Assembly: GCA_017651315.1 (NCBI GenBank)
Contig: JAGCDE010000045.1
Coordinates: forward strand, 62,001-126,000
Direction: 5' to 3'
Source: Bacteroidaceae bacterium
Lineage (GTDB): Bacteria > Bacteroidota > Bacteroidia > Bacteroidales > Bacteroidaceae
DNA: 64,000 nt
The notes below the pieces were generated by a model that was not told the origin of the DNA, made no database searches, and saw nothing but the letters and a program-made list of their open reading frames with translations. A program made the translations under genes and the position numbers. How positions within the stretch are numbered: the stretch's first letter is position 1; each line of letters opens with the position of its first letter. Positions 19,157 through 28,268 of the stretch are shown piece after piece.

Positions 19157-20491
19157 TCACATATCTTCAAGTGTAAGGCATCCGTAATCAACAGGATGAC
19201 CGCCAAACAGCTTATCGGACATCTCCTTGACTTTGCTCCCGAACTCAGGATGGCTATATTTCCGGCGTTGCCTTTTCACCTCATAAGCATGAGGCCTTCC
19301 GTCTAATCTTACAGCCACGATATCTATTTCACGCGGGTCCTGGTTTGCCCCCTTGACAGGTTTCCACCATCCCCCTATCTCCATGTAATCCTGTGACTCC
19401 ATCATCTTCTGCCGGAACCAACGCTCAAGGATTCGCCCGGAATAGTTACAGTAATCATCCTTTATTATATTCCCGAGAGCCTTGTAGTTCTTTATCTCGA
19501 TAAGCGGCCGATACCTGTCAAAATAGCGGAACCAGAATCTCAGGAAAACATCCGATATCTCATAACGCACATCCTTGGAATTCTCTCCGCTTCTCAACGG
19601 ACGTTTCTTGGCTATCAGCTTGTAATCTTCCTCCAGAAGTTTCATCTGCCCCCCAAGACTCTTGTTTCCCATAGCACCCTCTATCTGCGGCAAAGTCACC
19701 TCGCCACCCGCTATCCGGTTCAATATGGAGAAGTAAGTGCCGTAGTTCTTGCCTATCTCCTGAATAAGCATTTTCTCGCCCTCCTCAATGAACTGTGAAC
19801 CTGGAAGAACCATAAAATCCACCATTAACTCCATATCGGTACATCCGTTGTCCATCAGCAACTCCACATACTTGGGTATGCCGCCGGTAAAACAATAGAG
19901 AGCCAACAGGTCATCATTGCTGTAATCGGCCTTATAATCAGCTAATATCTCCTTCAGAACAGAGGTTGCAAACGGCTCCAGCTCCAATGTCAAGTCGGCC
20001 CTGCCGAACAACGGCTCCCTCTCATCCCTGAATATCTTATCCATAAGGGTATAGGTTGAACCACTGAACACCAGATTCACGTGGGTACTCCGCCGCTTAC
20101 GGTCCCATATATCCTGAATCTCGGAGAACACCTCCTTATTTATGTAATAGAACTCCTGGAACTCATCAATAAACAGATTGAACGGGCGAGTCTGGCCCGC
20201 ATCCATAATAATCTCAAAAATATCCCGGAAACGCTTTACGCCGTCGGGCACAAACACCCCGAGCACCCTGCGTATCTCCGCGGCAAATACCTGACAGAGG
20301 TCACTCTCAGCCTTGCGGGCCACAAACAGATAAAGGGTATCATTGCCACCCATGGCAAGCATGCCCAACGTAGTCTTACCAATACGGCGCCTCCCCTTGA
20401 GAAGCGTCATCTTAGAGAACTCGCTGAAAGACCTCTCCTGAGCGTCCTTTAACTGCCTGAGTTCAACATCCCTGTCATAATATCTTTTCAT
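19157..20491 (-). CDS. AAA ATPase with DUF234-like nuclease-fold C-terminus, orphan (copy 2)
   Basis: Cytoplasmic ATPase of 444 residues. Walker A is GRRRIGKT at 33-40 and Walker B FNLFIDEFQEF; a winged-helix segment follows, then a DUF234-like C-terminus with EIDIVAVRLDG and YEVKRQRR, an intact E-x-D...EVK nuclease-like motif. In-frame ATGs at 20542 and 20527 would give an unusual hydrophobic leader, so ATG 20491 (MKRYYDRDVELRQL) is preferred because it fits the family N-terminus. The promoter is an excellent match and the 5' leader contains repeated sites. Function unknown. Confidence 0.85.
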   Translation of the reverse strand: MKRYYDRDVELRQLKDAQERSFSEFSKMTLLKGRRRIGKTTLGMLAMGGNDTLYLFVARKAESDLCQVFAAEIRRVLGVFVPDGVKRFRDIFEIIMDAGQTRPFNLFIDEFQEFYYINKEVFSEIQDIWDRKRRSTHVNLVFSGSTYTLMDKIFRDEREPLFGRADLTLELEPFATSVLKEILADYKADYSNDDLLALYCFTGGIPKYVELLMDNGCTDMELMVDFMVLPGSQFIEEGEKMLIQEIGKNYGTYFSILNRIAGGEVTLPQIEGAMGNKSLGGQMKLLEEDYKLIAKKRPLRSGENSKDVRYEISDVFLRFWFRYFDRYRPLIEIKNYKALGNIIKDDYCNYSGRILERWFRQKMMESQDYMEIGGWWKPVKGANQDPREIDIVAVRLDGRPHAYEVKRQRRKYSHPEFGSKVKEMSDKLFGGHPVDYGCLTLEDM

Positions 20492-20510
20492 ACACCAGAA
20501 AAATGCACCT

Positions 20511-20549
20511 GCAAAGTTTATCGCCATAAACTTTACAGCCATAAACTTT
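20511..20549. repeat. Repeated 12-mer in the leader of ATPase copy 2
   Basis: GCCATAAACTTT occurs at 20523-20534 and 20538-20549, and a partial inverted copy GCAAAGTTTAT at 20511-20521. The array lies just downstream of the promoter, suiting a repressor site or RNA structure. Confidence 0.55.
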
Positions 20550-20691: not shown

Positions 20692-20765
20692 CAGCGTGTG
20701 GGCTGTGGATGCCGCAGGGCGCCCCGTCAGGAGGTCGCCCGCTGGCATCCACAGCCCACACGCTG
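20692..20765. repeat. Large GC-rich hairpin downstream of FISUMP gene A
   Basis: A perfect 22-bp inverted repeat (20692-20713 with 20744-20765) around a 30-base GC-rich loop that can fold further. It starts 41 bases past the stop codon. No T-run follows on the coding strand, so it is not a plain terminator. The hairpin at 27093-27168 is its counterpart. Confidence 0.8.
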
Positions 20766-20806
20766 AATGTTTGGTTCTATTTGCCTGTTTTGGGGAAAGA
20801 CAAATC

Positions 20807-22507
20807 CTACGGGCACACGGGCCGGACAGATCGTCCGTTGCTGCGGCTGTTGTCGCCCGTGTCGTTATAGTCCGAAATGAAGCAGAGGTTCCTGGCATCG
20901 TACGGATCGTCCGTGCCGAGCGAACTTGACCAGTAGCAGCCCCAAATACCATCGTAGTTGAGATCCGCATCGCGGCGCCACCCGCCTGCAGGCAGGAAAA
21001 TGGAGCGGTCGGTATAACCGGACTTCTTACTTGTAACCCTGCAACCATTGATTCCGTTCTGAGAAGTCCATTTCCAGGTGCAGTTTATTAACAACTCTTC
21101 GAATTCTGCTTGTGTGGGCATACGCCAATCTCCGCCCCACTTCACATGAGCTACGTCATCCTCAGAATCTAGTGTGGTCTTTTTATCAACAGTGCCATAA
21201 CTAATGTAATAGTTATACTTGGTAAGACTTGTATATGAACCTTTGCAGTGTTTATAGGTGGACCAGCCATATTCGGCCTTAGGTTCCGTCTCTCCCCAAG
21301 CGTAATAGTTACCATATTCTTCAGGGGCAGATGCGCCTACATTACATGTCGCCCACAAAACGGACAATCCTAAATCCACAAACTCGTAACCATTTGATAC
21401 ATTTCTTGTCCCAATGAATGACTTGATTTCACCATAATGGGCCACATTGTCTATCATTACGTATGAGCGATAATAAACTGTGCCTGAAGATATTGTAACT
21501 AATGTAAGAACGTAGTTGTTCTCATCATCAACCTCATTTGTGGAAACCTTCCGACCATTCACCGTAGGTGTTTCATTGTTTCCATAACAAACGCCTAACT
21601 CCGATGTACTGTATGCTTCACTGCCTATCTTCAGGGTGGATTTGACTGTATAAGTGGTTATGTCAATGTCACCGGTTATCACAACATCATCGTCCTTTGT
21701 GGTGAAACAATGGATTGGTCCGTATGAAAGATAGTTGTCAACGTAAGCGTATGAGCGGTAATAATAGGTGGTTGAGCCAGCCAGGGCATGGAGCTGGCAT
21801 GTGTAATTCCCATCGTTGTCCTTACTGTCTGCCTGTACTCTACTGTTATAGACTGTCGGTTGCGCATTAGTGCTGTAACAGATACCGTATGTGAGGTTTG
21901 TGTACTGTGTGGCTTGATCAATACTGATTGCTCCAGTAACATTTGCGCTATAGCATGTGACTTTGGTTGCCTCGCCACTGACTAAATCAACGCCCTGACC
22001 CTTTGTGGTGAATGACTCGACGTTACCGTAGAACCATATGCCGCTCTGATACACGAAAGAGCGGTAGTAATATGTGGTGGTTGGAGCAAGATTTGTCAAG
22101 CTGACTGTGTATTTGGCATCACGGCTCAGACTGGAAGTGCTCACGGTTATCTGTGTGCCGTTACTATTGCTCGGGGTACCCTGTGAGGTGTAGATTATTC
22201 CCACCTTCAAGTCTGTGGAATGGTTATCAAGAATGTTTGCCCATGAGGTAATCTTAGCTGTACAATTGGTAATGTCTGATGCACTGCCGGTTACGGTCGT
22301 TTCATCCTCATCATTACCATCATCATCGGATTCCATAAGTTCGAAATACACGCTTTCAATACTATCCACGTTGAATGGAGTGACGAGGCCATCAAGTGTG
22401 CGGACCTTCATCTGGTAATACTGCCCGGATGCTGTTAAGGAGAATAATGCAAACAATAAAACTGTTGCAAAACGAAGAATCTGAGATTTCTGTTCTATCT
22501 GTTTCAT
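20807..22507 (-). CDS. Surface protein with FN3-like repeats and C-terminal FISUMP domain (A)
   Basis: Exported protein of 566 residues. A signal segment (to about residue 28) leads into three FN3-like repeats of about 95 residues, each closing with a TTYYYRS(F/Y) or TVYYRSY strand, about residues 70-370. A C-terminal FISUMP (Fib_succ_major) domain follows: VDLGLSVLWATCNVGA, then WGGDWRMPTQAEFEELL, SIFLPAGGWR, and an end GRSVRPVCP. A stalk plus lectin-like tip suggests surface binding. The last 44 codons (20810-20941) differ greatly from those of the remnant at 26581. It overlaps the upstream small gene as ATGA. Confidence 0.85.
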   Translation of the reverse strand: MKQIEQKSQILRFATVLLFALFSLTASGQYYQMKVRTLDGLVTPFNVDSIESVYFELMESDDDGNDEDETTVTGSASDITNCTAKITSWANILDNHSTDLKVGIIYTSQGTPSNSNGTQITVSTSSLSRDAKYTVSLTNLAPTTTYYYRSFVYQSGIWFYGNVESFTTKGQGVDLVSGEATKVTCYSANVTGAISIDQATQYTNLTYGICYSTNAQPTVYNSRVQADSKDNDGNYTCQLHALAGSTTYYYRSYAYVDNYLSYGPIHCFTTKDDDVVITGDIDITTYTVKSTLKIGSEAYSTSELGVCYGNNETPTVNGRKVSTNEVDDENNYVLTLVTISSGTVYYRSYVMIDNVAHYGEIKSFIGTRNVSNGYEFVDLGLSVLWATCNVGASAPEEYGNYYAWGETEPKAEYGWSTYKHCKGSYTSLTKYNYYISYGTVDKKTTLDSEDDVAHVKWGGDWRMPTQAEFEELLINCTWKWTSQNGINGCRVTSKKSGYTDRSIFLPAGGWRRDADLNYDGIWGCYWSSSLGTDDPYDARNLCFISDYNDTGDNSRSNGRSVRPVCP

Positions 22508-22971
22508 TTCTTGAGGATTTTGACGGTTAGTGATTCGGAACTGATTATGTAAGTGCCTTCCGGCAACTCTGCTATACTGAATGTTACCGAGCCTGCCTCA
22601 TCTGTCTTGCAGGAATGCAGCTGCCTGCCATCCGATGCAATGAGGCGGACAGTGTCACCGGCCTTTGCTCCGGTTATGTTTACGGTGTATTCGTCAAGGG
22701 TGATGCTGGCTTTCGTGGAATCTTCCTTGATTCCCTCAACAGCGGATTCCTTACTATCGAAAGTAAACCTGGACACTTTGGCCAGTTCATACCGGAGCTC
22801 TGTCTTAGTGGATTTGACTACCAGCTCGGTTTCAGTGAAAGTCACTACGGGTTTGTCTTCGAACCCGAAGCTGAACTGCTCCCCGTTCTTCTGGTGGACC
22901 GTCAGGGTGTTCTGGCCAAATGCTGTCAATGAGGTAAGCATCAGCACACAGGAAAGGATTGTAAGTTTCAT
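22504..22971 (-). CDS. Secreted protein with T9SS-like tail, operon partner of FISUMP gene A
   Basis: Protein of 155 residues; the ATG at 22971 opens a signal peptide (cleavage near AFGQ). The body matches the short Bacteroidales module LTVHQKNGEQFSFGFEDKPV, in which a backbone strand is followed by VKSTKTELRYELAKVSRFTF. The C-terminal half ends with a strand-rich tail (GDTVRLIASDGRQLHS to GTYIISSESLTVKILKK) like type A T9SS sorting domains. Its stop overlaps the start of the FISUMP gene. Related pairs occur in surface-protein operons; the exact role is unknown. Confidence 0.78.
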   Translation of the reverse strand: MKLTILSCVLMLTSLTAFGQNTLTVHQKNGEQFSFGFEDKPVVTFTETELVVKSTKTELRYELAKVSRFTFDSKESAVEGIKEDSTKASITLDEYTVNITGAKAGDTVRLIASDGRQLHSCKTDEAGSVTFSIAELPEGTYIISSESLTVKILKK

Positions 22972-23005
22972 TCTGTAAGTCCAATTTGATTTATTGATAA
23001 TACCA

Positions 23006-23013
23006 CAAAGATA
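23006..23013 (-). promoter_or_regulatory. Bacteroidota -7 box for the FISUMP operon
   Basis: Minus strand TATCTTTG, an exact TAnnTTTG match, 35 bases before ATG 22971. Confidence 0.5.
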
Positions 23014-23135
23014 TGCACTTTGACTGGAACTACATTTTTTATGGTAATAAAATGTCAAAAGTTCTATTGAACCATTCAACTCCCTTACCTTGGCAGACAG
23101 AGACGGACGCTCAACCTTAACAAAAAGAACAGATT

Positions 23136-25157: not shown

Positions 25158-26477
25158 TCAAATAGTCGTCAGGTTAATCAGTTCTTTTGTACGGTCAGCC
25201 ATAAACAACGGCAGATTTACAAGATTGTTGTAGCGTTTGAGATTCTGCATGGAAAACCGCAGGCGGAGTGGCGGGGCATACGTATTGTTGTATTGAGTAA
25301 GGCTTTTCCCCGAAAGACTTGTCCCGGATTTTACTTCAACAGGTATAATGGCTGTTCCGTTCTGTAACAGAAACTCTATCTCAGCTTTGTTGCCGGAAGC
25401 CCAATAACGGAAATCATCGGATATTCTGTATAGGAAACTCTGCAGGATATAGTTTTCGGCCAGTGCTCCCTTAAACTCCTTGAACAAATCTGTAGATTGC
25501 ATATATACATCCGGAGTCATTCCCGCCAAGCGTCGGAGCAGACCTATATCATTGGCATACACTTTAAAAACAGCGAGGTTATCGTATGCTTTAAGAGGCA
25601 GCCGCGGCTCACGGCACAGACGGACTTGATGTATCAGCCCTGCACTTTTAAGCCAAATCAATGCATCTTCATATTCTCTGGCGCGTGCACCCGGGCGGAC
25701 CAGCTGATATACGAACTTCCGGTTCTCTTTGGCGAGCTGTGAAGGCAGGGATTGCCAGACATGTCCTATCTTGTTGGCCATGACCGGGGTGGTATGCTTA
25801 ATGAAATCAAGCGAGTAGTCTTTCAGTATGTTTGCCAGTTTTTCCTCTACAAGCTGCACTTGGCCGTTGAGCATGGCAGATGTGACCTCCGGCATACCTC
25901 CACAAATACGATATGATGTAAACGCTTCCGATAACCTGTCAAAAAAGACCTGTGGTATTGGTTCTATGGTGTCGATGGATATATAATATTCATATAACCG
26001 GCTGTCCCTGGCTTTCAGGAACTCTGAGAATGAAACAGGACGCAAATCCATGTGATCAACCTTGCCGACAGGGAATGAAACGCCGTTATGTCCTACTGTC
26101 AGGCCTAACAGTGAGCCTGCACATGCAACGGCATATTCCGGTGCGTTTTCACAGAAATATTTAAGTGCGCCCAAAGCCTCAGGACATTCCTGGATTTCAT
26201 CCAGAATAAGCAATGTGTTGTGTGGTTTGATAGGAACGTCAGTCAGGTATGAGAGTTGTCCCACAATCCGGTGAGGGTCCTTGGTGCGTCTGAAAATTTC
26301 GCCTACGCTTTCCTCTTCGTCAATGCTGAAATATGCACAATGTTCAAAATGGGTTTTCCCAAAATGCTTTAACACCCAGGTCTTTCCTACCTGACGAGCC
26401 CCGAACAGCAATAGCGGTTTACGGTCCGCCTTGTCTTTCCAGTTCTCCAATTGTCCGTTTATGCTACGCTCTATCAT
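25158..26477 (-). CDS. AAA_14/DUF4143 ATPase, orphan (copy 3)
   Basis: Cytoplasmic protein of 439 residues. Walker A GARQVGKT is at 26-33 and Walker B LLILDEIQECPEALG; sensor CAGSLLGLTV follows. The DUF4143 C-terminus carries EIEFLLQNG and IPVEVKSG, an intact PD-(D/E)XK-like core. Substrate and role are unknown. It precedes uvrB by six bases. Its upstream region has a 16-bp inverted repeat enclosing the promoter. A truncated FISUMP gene begins directly behind that promoter, so the ATPase gene may mark a recombination junction. Confidence 0.88.
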   Translation of the reverse strand: MIERSINGQLENWKDKADRKPLLLFGARQVGKTWVLKHFGKTHFEHCAYFSIDEEESVGEIFRRTKDPHRIVGQLSYLTDVPIKPHNTLLILDEIQECPEALGALKYFCENAPEYAVACAGSLLGLTVGHNGVSFPVGKVDHMDLRPVSFSEFLKARDSRLYEYYISIDTIEPIPQVFFDRLSEAFTSYRICGGMPEVTSAMLNGQVQLVEEKLANILKDYSLDFIKHTTPVMANKIGHVWQSLPSQLAKENRKFVYQLVRPGARAREYEDALIWLKSAGLIHQVRLCREPRLPLKAYDNLAVFKVYANDIGLLRRLAGMTPDVYMQSTDLFKEFKGALAENYILQSFLYRISDDFRYWASGNKAEIEFLLQNGTAIIPVEVKSGTSLSGKSLTQYNNTYAPPLRLRFSMQNLKRYNNLVNLPLFMADRTKELINLTTI

Positions 26478-26580: not shown

Positions 26581-27060
26581 GGTTCTTTCCAGATTATATA
26601 TAGCTGGTCTACCTATAAATACGGCAGCTCCAGTACATTAACCAAGTATAATAGCGATATTTGGAGTACAGGAGATAACAAGACAGTTCTTGATCCTGAA
26701 GATGACGTAGCTCATGTGACTTGGGGCGGAGATTGGCGTCTGCCTACAGTTGCGGAGCTGGATGAATTGAATAATAATGCCAACTGCACTTGGACTTGGA
26801 CTTCAAAAAACGGCACGTATGGTTATATGGTAACAAGTAAGAAATCCGGTTATGAAGGAGCTTCCATTTTCTTGCCCGCTGCCGGGTGTCGCTACGATTC
26901 GAGTCTGCTCTACGCCGGATCCTTCGGCTACTACTGGTCCGGTTCTCTCGGTACGGACTACCCGGGCCGCGCGTGGTGCCTCAGCTTCAATTCCGACGAT
27001 CACAACACGGGCAACATCCTCCGCTACTACGGTCTATCTGTGCGGCCTGTTCTTCCGTAG
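26581..27060 (+). pseudogene. Truncated FISUMP domain gene (B), 3' fragment
   Basis: An open frame of 159 codons begins right after an in-frame TAA and has no plausible start, signal peptide or promoter. It aligns with the FISUMP domain of gene A from WSTYKYGSSSTLTKYN onward: DPEDDVAHVTWGGDWRLP, SIFLPAAG, ending GLSVRPVLP. The stalk and front of the domain are missing. It is either a recombination remnant or a silent donor cassette. The last 44 codons (26926-27057) differ from gene A at 19 positions, while the 3' noncoding flank is similar. Translation from GTG 26716 cannot be excluded. Confidence 0.72.
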
Positions 27061-27092
27061 GATTTGTCCTGTTTCCCCAACAGGCAAGCATT

Positions 27093-27168
27093 CAGCCGCA
27101 GGGCTGCCTGATGCAGGCGGGGTGGCAATGCCAAAGCCACCCTGCGGCATCAGGCAGTCCTGCGGCTG
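27093..27168. repeat. Large GC-rich hairpin downstream of FISUMP fragment B
   Basis: A 22-bp inverted repeat (27093-27114 with 27147-27168, one G-U pair) with an inner GGGTGGC/GCCACCC stem, starting 32 bases past the stop. Same position and shape as the hairpin after gene A, with partly different stem sequence. Confidence 0.8.
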
Positions 27169-27332
27169 CGTTCAAAAAATATCCGTGGTCCAAAAAAGAT
27201 GGGTAAGCTATTGTCGTTCCCGAAAATTCAGCATACTTTTGTGTTAACTGATACCGAAGGGCACTCCGCTGCACATTTAAAGTGTCAGGCGAGTGCCCTT
27301 CAATATTATTAATACCTAACAATAAAACCATT

Positions 27333-28268
27333 ATGAAAACAAACAAGTATTCAGAAAATGAGCACGATGCCATCCTGAGAGAGGCTGAGCGCTTGGGTAT
27401 CAAATTCATTGACCTGAAAAGTGATTTTGGTTTCAAGTATGTCTTCGGAATGAAAGGCCGTGAAAAAGAGTTGCTTAAACTTATCAACTGTATCCTGCCT
27501 GAGAAGCACATTGTCAGAGTTGAGTTGGGGCCGCAGGAACAGGTGGGTGACCGTCCTGATGCCCGCAAGGCAATATATGATATCCATTGTACCACCGAAA
27601 CAGGAACGTTGGTCGATATAGAGATTCAACGCGGTGAACATGGCGATTTTGGCAAACGTATGGTTTTCTACTCCAGTTTCGCTATACGCAACAGCTTGAG
27701 TGTCGGAGTGAAGTATTATGATGAGATTCCAGAGATATATGTGATAGGCATATTGGATTTCATTATGCCGGGTGTGAAGTTAAATCCGGAGTTAATAAAC
27801 CATTACAGTCTGCGAAATGACCGTGAAGGGATGATAACCTTGACAGACACTGTACATTATGTTACAGTGGAATTGCCTAAGTTTACGAAAAACGAATCCG
27901 AACTGAATGTCGATGCGGACATTATGTGGTATTTGTTCCGTAATCTTGACAAACTGGAGGAAATACCGAAAGAAATTCTGAACAAAGGTTTTGATAATAT
28001 AATCAAAGTGAGTAAGTTTGCGGGTATGAAACCCGAAGAGCAAGATAGATATTTCCGTGAGGTCATGTATGAGATGGACGAACGTGACCGTCTGCGTACT
28101 GCCCATAGACGCGGCGTATCAGAAGGTGAGGCCCGTGGTGAGGCCCGTGGAATAGTGAAGGGTAAAGAAGATGTAGCTCGTGAAATGAAAGCCATAGGCT
28201 TGTCAGTGGACATCATTGTCAAGTGTACTGGGTTGACCGAGGAACAGATTGCCGGACTTCATATATGA
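27333..28268 (+). CDS. Rpn family recombination-promoting nuclease (PD-(D/E)XK)
   Basis: Protein of 311 residues in the Rpn/putative-transposase family, whose members cut DNA and promote RecA-independent recombination in E. coli. The ATG at 27333 was chosen because it opens into the family start (ILREAERLGIKFIDLKSDFGFKYVFG). The nuclease core is visible as D-x-E-x-Q in TLVDIEIQRGEHGDFGKR, followed by YYSSFAIRNSL-like helices. The C-terminus has the typical Gly/Arg/Glu repeat (GEARGEARGIVKGKED) and closing helix. Despite the annotation often used, it is not an insertion sequence. Confidence 0.88.
   Translation: MKTNKYSENEHDAILREAERLGIKFIDLKSDFGFKYVFGMKGREKELLKLINCILPEKHIVRVELGPQEQVGDRPDARKAIYDIHCTTETGTLVDIEIQRGEHGDFGKRMVFYSSFAIRNSLSVGVKYYDEIPEIYVIGILDFIMPGVKLNPELINHYSLRNDREGMITLTDTVHYVTVELPKFTKNESELNVDADIMWYLFRNLDKLEEIPKEILNKGFDNIIKVSKFAGMKPEEQDRYFREVMYEMDERDRLRTAHRRGVSEGEARGEARGIVKGKEDVAREMKAIGLSVDIIVKCTGLTEEQIAGLHI

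Follow-up and report, generated by a model that had tools for sequence, protein, structure and literature searches.

Variable C-terminal tails in an uncultured Bacteroidales genome as candidate orphan targets of a diversity-generating retroelement

Introduction

The diversity-generating retroelement (DGR) of Bordetella phage BPP-1 comprises a reverse transcriptase (RT), a template and a variable region (VR) that forms the 3' terminus of the target gene. Its 3' homing signal is not the same in template and VR, and a hairpin lies downstream of the VR. The hairpins described below are longer (~30 base pairs) than that of the phage element and lie farther downstream. DGRs with several VRs and with a downstream hairpin or cruciform have been described (PMC3521204).

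The closest parallels to the present locus come from Treponema denticola, in which DGR target genes persist in isolates without RT and template, some targets are remote, and multiple gains and losses of DGRs have been proposed (PMC4891356). Unlike those remnants, the targets described here belong to an uncultured Bacteroidales genus and number seven in a single genome, where they fall into at least two template clusters and are accompanied by an RT remnant and by an orthologue pair that suggests freezing. In cyanobacteria, C-terminal variable domains are dispersed on varied N-terminal parts, and one paralogue retains remnant template–VR homology with no RT nearby (PMC7517822). Our case shares this dispersal of C-terminal VRs on varied N-terminal parts, but it concerns another lineage and other domains, and an orthologue comparison is available.

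Domains of the Fib_succ_major and DUF1566 types are DGR targets (PMC4159848, PMC8143477). The C-terminal target domain studied here is of the same kind; those targets were assigned together with DGR templates or complete DGRs, whereas ours are orphaned in their own assembly. The available portion of PMC8144416 contains no orphan-target case of comparable kind. We found no paper linking FISUMP domains to DGRs, and a limited literature search returned no published description of the present case. Orphan DGR targets are already known; the present one is a new and well-resolved case.

Here, we analyzed a stretch of 64,000 nucleotides (the window) from contig 42 of a Bacteroidaceae bacterium, the assembly of which (the source genome, G000) has 2.69 Mb in 59 contigs and is 83% complete.

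Results

Two variable tails in the window

A preliminary description of this DNA compared two C-terminal tails of 44 codons each, 20941-20810 (minus strand) and 26926-27057 (plus strand). Our counts agree with it in that 19 residues differ and nine codons differ only synonymously. The likeness that it reported for the surrounding sequence is more limited. Identity in the upstream domain is moderate (59/88 aligned residues), and the 3' flanks agree over the first ~27 bases, beyond which the hairpins are similar in form and largely different in their letters. The FISUMP label also proved weak, as both proteins match TIGR02145 (FISUMP) and PF07603 (Lcl_C) below the curated cut-offs, with Lcl_C scores of 21.7 bits for the gene carrying VR1 and 31.3 bits for the fragment carrying VR2. 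Among the proteins scanned, the contig 13 protein described below is alone in exceeding the Lcl_C cut-off. We take PF07603 to be the former DUF1566. PF09603, the FISUMP family of Pfam, had no match at the window and one sub-cut-off match, on contig 41, across the whole source genome, and a search by sequence for solved structures of the target domain gave none at E <= 1.

Both VRs are 3'-terminal in their reading frames, reach the stop codon, and fall within a domain of the kind that DGRs diversify (Table 1). Behind the gene carrying VR1, neither a template nor an RT was found. The reading frame with VR2 is closed on its 5' side by a stop and hence is no complete gene. An ORF of the PDDEXK_2 transposase type (27282-28268) starts ~220 bases past VR2, and ORFs of AAA_14 ATPases are found nearby at 25158-26477 (with DUF4143) and 19157-20542 (with DUF234). 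With such neighbors, the headless VR2 fragment therefore lies among possibly mobile genes.

Table 1. Coordinates of features in the window and of the DGR in the congener G018 (locus L057)
Feature	Location	Strand	Remarks
Target-type gene, 566 aa	20807..22507	-	ORF; VR1 terminates its C-terminal Lcl_C/FISUMP-like domain
VR1 (DGR variable region that looks frozen)	20807..20998	-	Adenine-site counts against VR2 and orthologue L092
Upstream partner ORF	22504..23079	-	4-base overlap with start of target gene
TAGGATTTGTC, stop codon and conserved 3' motif after VR1	20799..20809	-	Common to VRs
Long GC-rich hairpin after VR1	20692..20765	-	132-nt flank, -45.3 kcal/mol, z -9.3
Headless Lcl_C/FISUMP-like fragment carrying VR2	26581..27060	+	160 codons with stop; N-terminal part missing
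VR2, DGR variable region	26869..27060	+	Template cluster common with contig 27 and contig 54 copies
TAGGATTTGTC, 3' motif after VR2	27058..27068	+	Motif search
Long GC-rich hairpin after VR2	27093..27168	+	122-nt flank, -47.5 kcal/mol, z -9.25
G018 partner ORF	L057 1555-2040		Precedes target gene
G018 target gene ending in VR	L057 2037-3965		Hairpin after VR
G018 accessory ORF	L057 4137-4670 (about)
G018 template	L057 4835-5026
G018 reverse transcriptase	L057 5056-6243

A complete DGR in a genome of the same genus, located with an inferred template

In a codon alignment of the VRs of the source genome, the variable codons have the form NNC or NNT, so the inferred template was written with AAC or AAT at these codons. 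This template matched 12/37 genomes of the genus (E <= 1e-5). A strong match in G018, a genome of the same genus that is ~100% complete, lies beside an RT on a short contig of 8 kb (C52). Template and VR of G018 differ at 24 positions in a 192-base core, and all 24 are adenines in the template, which has 52 adenines there (p = 1.9e-16). Just beyond this core the two differ at other bases as well, the template ending in TAGCACTTGTCC and the VR in TAGGATTTGTCC; the homing sites of template and VR differ in a similar manner in known DGRs. With an RT, a template, a VR and adenine-specific differences, the DGR of G018 is complete.

The partner ORF in the window and the ORF ahead of the G018 target gene share 67% identity over 162 columns, and the window gene therefore stands in the same two-gene arrangement as the G018 target; the partner ORF has no Pfam match. 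Unlike in the BPP-1 element, the accessory ORF of G018 encodes a protein for which no family match was found in Pfam, NCBIfam, or PHROGs at the thresholds used. Homologues of this ORF occur at 13 of the 29 loci searched, a set in which two places are included twice, and we regard its product as an unnamed conserved DGR accessory protein.

Seven targets and a lone cassette in the source genome

A query of 281 bases taken from VR1 had 12 matches in the source genome, namely seven of VR type, one lone cassette on contig 20, and four short matches to domains of the same family. The seven VRs, two on contig 42 and one each on contigs 27, 55, 54, 13, and 23, are borne by different proteins. The contig 27 gene (L071:9649-10785) encodes an N terminus that we read as LytTR-like, for which there was no Pfam call, followed by a transmembrane stretch and a FISUMP-like domain; contig 14 holds a homologue of its N-terminal part, 65% identical over 63 aa. 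The contig 55 protein, of 1080 aa, has seven BACON stretches and two FISUMP-like domains, and the contig 13 protein (L069:5567-7948) is fimbrillin-like (Mfa_like_1) and is followed by a weaker hairpin. By eye, the contig 54 protein has probable leucine-rich repeats. The contig 23 gene is cut by the contig edge.

Several copies are broken: the VR2 gene is beheaded, the contig 54 copy has a premature stop before its VR, and the contig 20 cassette is frameshifted, although single-base breaks in a metagenome-assembled genome (MAG) may be assembly errors. The cassette (L067:827-1013) is VR-sized and has no upstream domain; it starts near the position of the G018 template border and carries the VR-type 3' motif with no hairpin. 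It may represent a copy that inserted at a non-target site. We considered it as a template and rejected it because of the frameshift, the low number of AAY codons (three in its matched parts), the VR-type motif, and the missing hairpin.

Differences concentrate at template adenines

The G018 template was used as the adenine map (51 adenine sites and 138 others); it differs from the VRs of the source genome at 14-24% of the non-adenine sites. On this map, VR1 and VR2 differ at 29/51 adenine sites and at 29/138 others (p = 5e-6). All seven VRs together are variable at 48/51 adenine sites and 64/138 others (p = 3.6e-10), and 34/51 adenine sites and 18/138 others vary in the cluster formed by the copies on contigs 27, 42 (VR2), and 54 (p = 2e-12). 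The adenine pattern that the preliminary description discussed as the mark of a DGR is real, and the template inferred from the variable codons led to the complete element in G018.

Codon positions were compared separately. At AAY codons of the template, the pairwise differences at first, second, and third positions amount to 0.64/0.54/0.25 among the seven VRs and to 0.63/0.52/0.067 in the VR2 cluster, whereas non-AAY codons give 0.19/0.18/0.32 and 0.09/0.08/0.13, respectively. For comparison, five related domains of the source genome that have no 3' motif, three of them internal and two ending a frame, give 0.46/0.43/0.69 over all codons.

The non-adenine distance is 0.05-0.13 among the copies on contigs 27, 42 (VR2), and 54, with VR2 at 0.05 and 0.09 from its sisters on contigs 27 and 54, and 0.12 between those on contigs 55 and 23. 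VR1 and the contig 13 copy are each 0.16-0.31 away from the other VRs and from the G018 template. VR1 and VR2, 0.21 apart, therefore belong to different clusters. These distances bear on the nine synonymous differences, which the preliminary description had held against adenine mutagenesis from one template: part of them would go back to separate templates, an alternative that it had itself named (0.21 compared with 0.05-0.13 within the cluster), and part to drift (20/138 sites between VR1 and its orthologue, see below). They fit a combination of separate template lineages and drift, the latter in a copy whose rewriting has ceased.

A shared 3' motif and hairpins

Each VR in the window is followed by the 3' motif and a downstream hairpin; the hairpin is weak or absent in some relatives. 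The motif TAGGATTTGTC sits at the expected place of the homing-initiation (IMH) sequence. At up to one mismatch it occurs twice in the window, both times exactly and at the end of a VR, a number of sites also reached in 32/100 shuffles. Across the source genome, CGTAGGATTTGTC has six exact matches, every one at a VR, and four further matches with one mismatch, two of them at VRs (8/10 at VRs in total at <=1 mismatch); the reversed control pattern has two matches in the same genome.

None of 200 shuffles of the 132-nt flank of VR1 was equally stable. Sequence relatives of the VR2 hairpin comprise nine matches at five loci of the source genome, beside VRs only. Six of the eight flanks folded from this genome reach z -5 or lower, with contig 13 at z -2.8 and the contig 20 cassette at z +1.3. 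Among flanks with GGATTTGTC in the examined loci, 15/22 fold at z < -3 and 7/22 do not. The letters of the hairpin vary among clusters and its form is kept. The motif and the hairpin are candidate cis signals, with possible roles in homing or transcription termination.

An RT remnant in the source genome

The preliminary description proposed a search of the whole genome for an RT and a template. Such a search returned no intact RT or template, one of the two findings which that description had named as jointly refuting a DGR, but it did return a 3' remnant of an RT, in an assembly that is 83% complete; the DGR reading of the tails is upheld by their adenine pattern, whereas present activity is not supported. 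PF00078 has no match in this assembly. The G018 enzyme matches a C-terminal piece only (contig 41:6067-6219, E 1.4e-9), which is 57% identical to it over 51 columns and lies within a 75-codon ORF between other genes. The homology of this remnant extends beyond the stop of the G018 frame. A hidden template was also considered: of the nine matches of the inferred template in the source genome, seven are the VRs, one is the contig 20 cassette, and one is a domain on contig 11; none of them reads as a template. With 83% completeness, 59 contigs, and repeats like the VRs, which break assemblies, an intact RT and template may be merely missing.

Across the genus, PF00078 matches are found in 7/37 genomes. 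They occur in four of the 12 VR-positive genomes (G011, G016, G018, and G027), and the other 8/12 have no match. The G018 enzyme itself finds counterparts in 5/37 genomes at E <= 0.001, that is, the full enzyme in G018, the remnant in G000, distant matches in G011 and G024, and a weak one in G016. The RTs of G011 and G024 (24-31% identity) are probably not the cognate writer, as the templates beside them read as another type. The G018 accessory protein matches G018 itself alone among the 37 genomes, with no match in the source genome. In three loci (L035, L059, and L066, from G011, G027, and G001), VR-like NNC-rich segments occur in which the frame continues and GGATTTGTC is lacking; these are probably internally duplicated former VRs.

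Family-wide, the G018 enzyme has matches in 22/399 genomes (E <= 1e-30), and 10 of 25 loci beside related RTs have a template of the same type, as judged by reading of the translations. Among viral contigs, three relatives of the enzyme turned up in a scan, one of which has a template of another type. In the other two, L142 and L144, template and VR differ at adenines only (22/22 and 16/16 substitutions, with 186 bases compared). These two loci have nearly the same template, different VRs, and RTs 48-49% identical to that of G018, and they apparently represent an active phage DGR.

VR1 looks frozen

The gene carrying VR1 has an orthologue in a Bacteroidales MAG of UBA1192 (L092; 79% identity over residues 1-565) and a deeper one in L093 (59% identity). 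VR1 differs from the VR of L092 at 6/51 adenine sites and 20/138 others, and from that of L093 at 29/51 and 37/138. An even spread of substitutions over all bases, which the preliminary description would have counted against a DGR, is what VR1 and its closer orthologue show; among the paralogues it does not hold (29/51 against 29/138).

To put the L092 pair in context, 53 distinct VR-type domains from the examined loci were compared, which yielded 20 pairs with >=78% identity upstream and enough aligned sites; the pairs share members and so are not independent. In 19/20 of them, the VRs differ at 0.41-0.69 of the adenine sites. The remaining pair is that of the window gene and L092, with 0.12 of adenine sites and 0.14 of non-adenine sites (18/132 in this comparison). 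At a rate of 0.41, the probability of six or fewer differences at 51 adenine sites is 5e-6. L092 has lost the 3' motif, whereas the window copy retains it. Judged from this single orthologue pair, VR1 looks frozen, with a tail that has come through almost unscrambled in both species. Within the genus, the genes on contigs 27 and 13 have either no orthologue or a partial one, which precluded a repeat of the freeze test for them.

For the window gene and L092, dN/dS takes values of 0.46 for the VR (63 codons), 0.16 for the upstream domain, and 0.13 for the N-terminal part, which may suggest inheritance under weaker constraint. The corresponding dS values are 0.27, 0.29, and 0.89. Because silent divergence is uneven along the gene, the two species may have exchanged the C-terminal region after their split. 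In that event the freezing would be younger than the species split and as old as the exchange, dated by its own silent divergence.

Discussion

That the tails originate from a DGR, whether its writer is intact or lost, we regard as very nearly certain. Beyond this, the explanation we prefer, with modest confidence, is that they are DGR VRs whose writer has been lost from this genome, leaving orphan targets behind, VR1 among them as a frozen copy. A DGR RT would have copied template RNA while misreading adenines, and the cDNA would have replaced the 3' ends of target genes marked by TAGGATTTGTC and usually by a long downstream hairpin; these copying steps are modeled on the biochemistry of known DGRs. 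The element would have written several proteins of this Bacteroidales lineage, mostly of surface or secreted type, with the changed residues presumably forming a ligand-binding face. After loss of the writer, of which a 3' remnant of the RT would be left, the targets would have aged in different ways, becoming frozen, beheaded, stopped, or frameshifted.

Two other readings concern the writer. The system may be intact, its writer and template lying in the 17% of the genome that the assembly lacks or being carried by an unbinned mobile element, with at least the targets of the VR2 cluster still being rewritten; this we consider possible but less than probable. The incompleteness of the assembly favors it, as do the short 8-kb contig that holds the G018 DGR and the occurrence of related DGRs on viral contigs. 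Pairs within the VR2 cluster, moreover, differ at 0.47-0.51 of adenine sites and at only 0.05-0.13 of non-adenine sites; because the adenine sites are far more divergent, rewriting in this cluster must have been recent. Against an intact system stand the recovery of the RT only as a remnant, with no PF00078 match, the failure to find the accessory gene in the source genome, the broken copies, and VR1, which shows no recent rewriting. Alternatively, writer and targets may live apart across the genus, the VRs retaining motif and hairpin as landing pads, being rewritten only on the passage of a mobile DGR, and then staying locked and inherited until the next one. This we hold to be rather unlikely, and equally doubtful is its corollary that VR1 is a locked variant common to two species. 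It would account for VR-like matches in 12/37 genomes of the genus when a full matching RT is found only in G018, and for G007 (97% complete; no PF00078), in which the differences between two VRs amount to 0.53 of the adenine sites and 0.17 of the remaining ones. The assemblies are, however, incomplete, and G011, G016, and G027 do have some RT match.

Explanations that dispense with adenine misreading fare worse. Exchange of mosaic blocks among silent cassettes by gene conversion, with the contig 20 cassette as donor, would suit a VR-sized cassette that has no upstream domain and starts near the template border, and silent divergence that varies along the VR1 gene gives a hint of some exchange; but converted blocks would carry non-adenine sites with them, whereas the adenine sites are scrambled and their neighbors are cluster-specific, and the cassette carries a frameshift and only a small number of AAY codons. 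We judge gene conversion very unlikely. The least credible of the readings, and a highly improbable one, involves no retroelement: paralogues would have diverged in the ordinary way, a possibility that the preliminary description had left open, with positive selection acting on residues that contact the ligand. The nine synonymous differences and the behavior of the VR1/L092 pair are what this reading would give. The third base at AAY codons is near-fixed in the VR2 cluster (0.067, compared with 0.63 and 0.52 at the other positions), and the reading is disfavored because selection on amino acids alone produces no such fixation; the five motif-less domains show the opposite (0.46/0.43/0.69). 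The variable codons are, in addition, the AAY codons of a real template beside an RT, and for the family as a whole the 24/24 adenine substitutions in G018 contradict this reading.

Should the preferred reading of a lost writer hold, the genome may show the aftermath of DGRs, which have mostly been studied while running, with scrambled binding surfaces that persist, break down, or become locked after loss of the writer. A handle on the idea that a good variant is found by a DGR and then kept would come from the pair formed by the window gene and its orthologue in another species. The contig 13 gene, which joins the target domain to a fimbrillin-like domain, compares with a published target joined to a fimbrial (Mfa2) domain (PMC4159848, PMC8143477). 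Diversified tip pilins of Bacteroides are mentioned in PMC12632263, where they are cited from another study, and the contig 13 protein is reminiscent of such DGR-diversified pilus tips.
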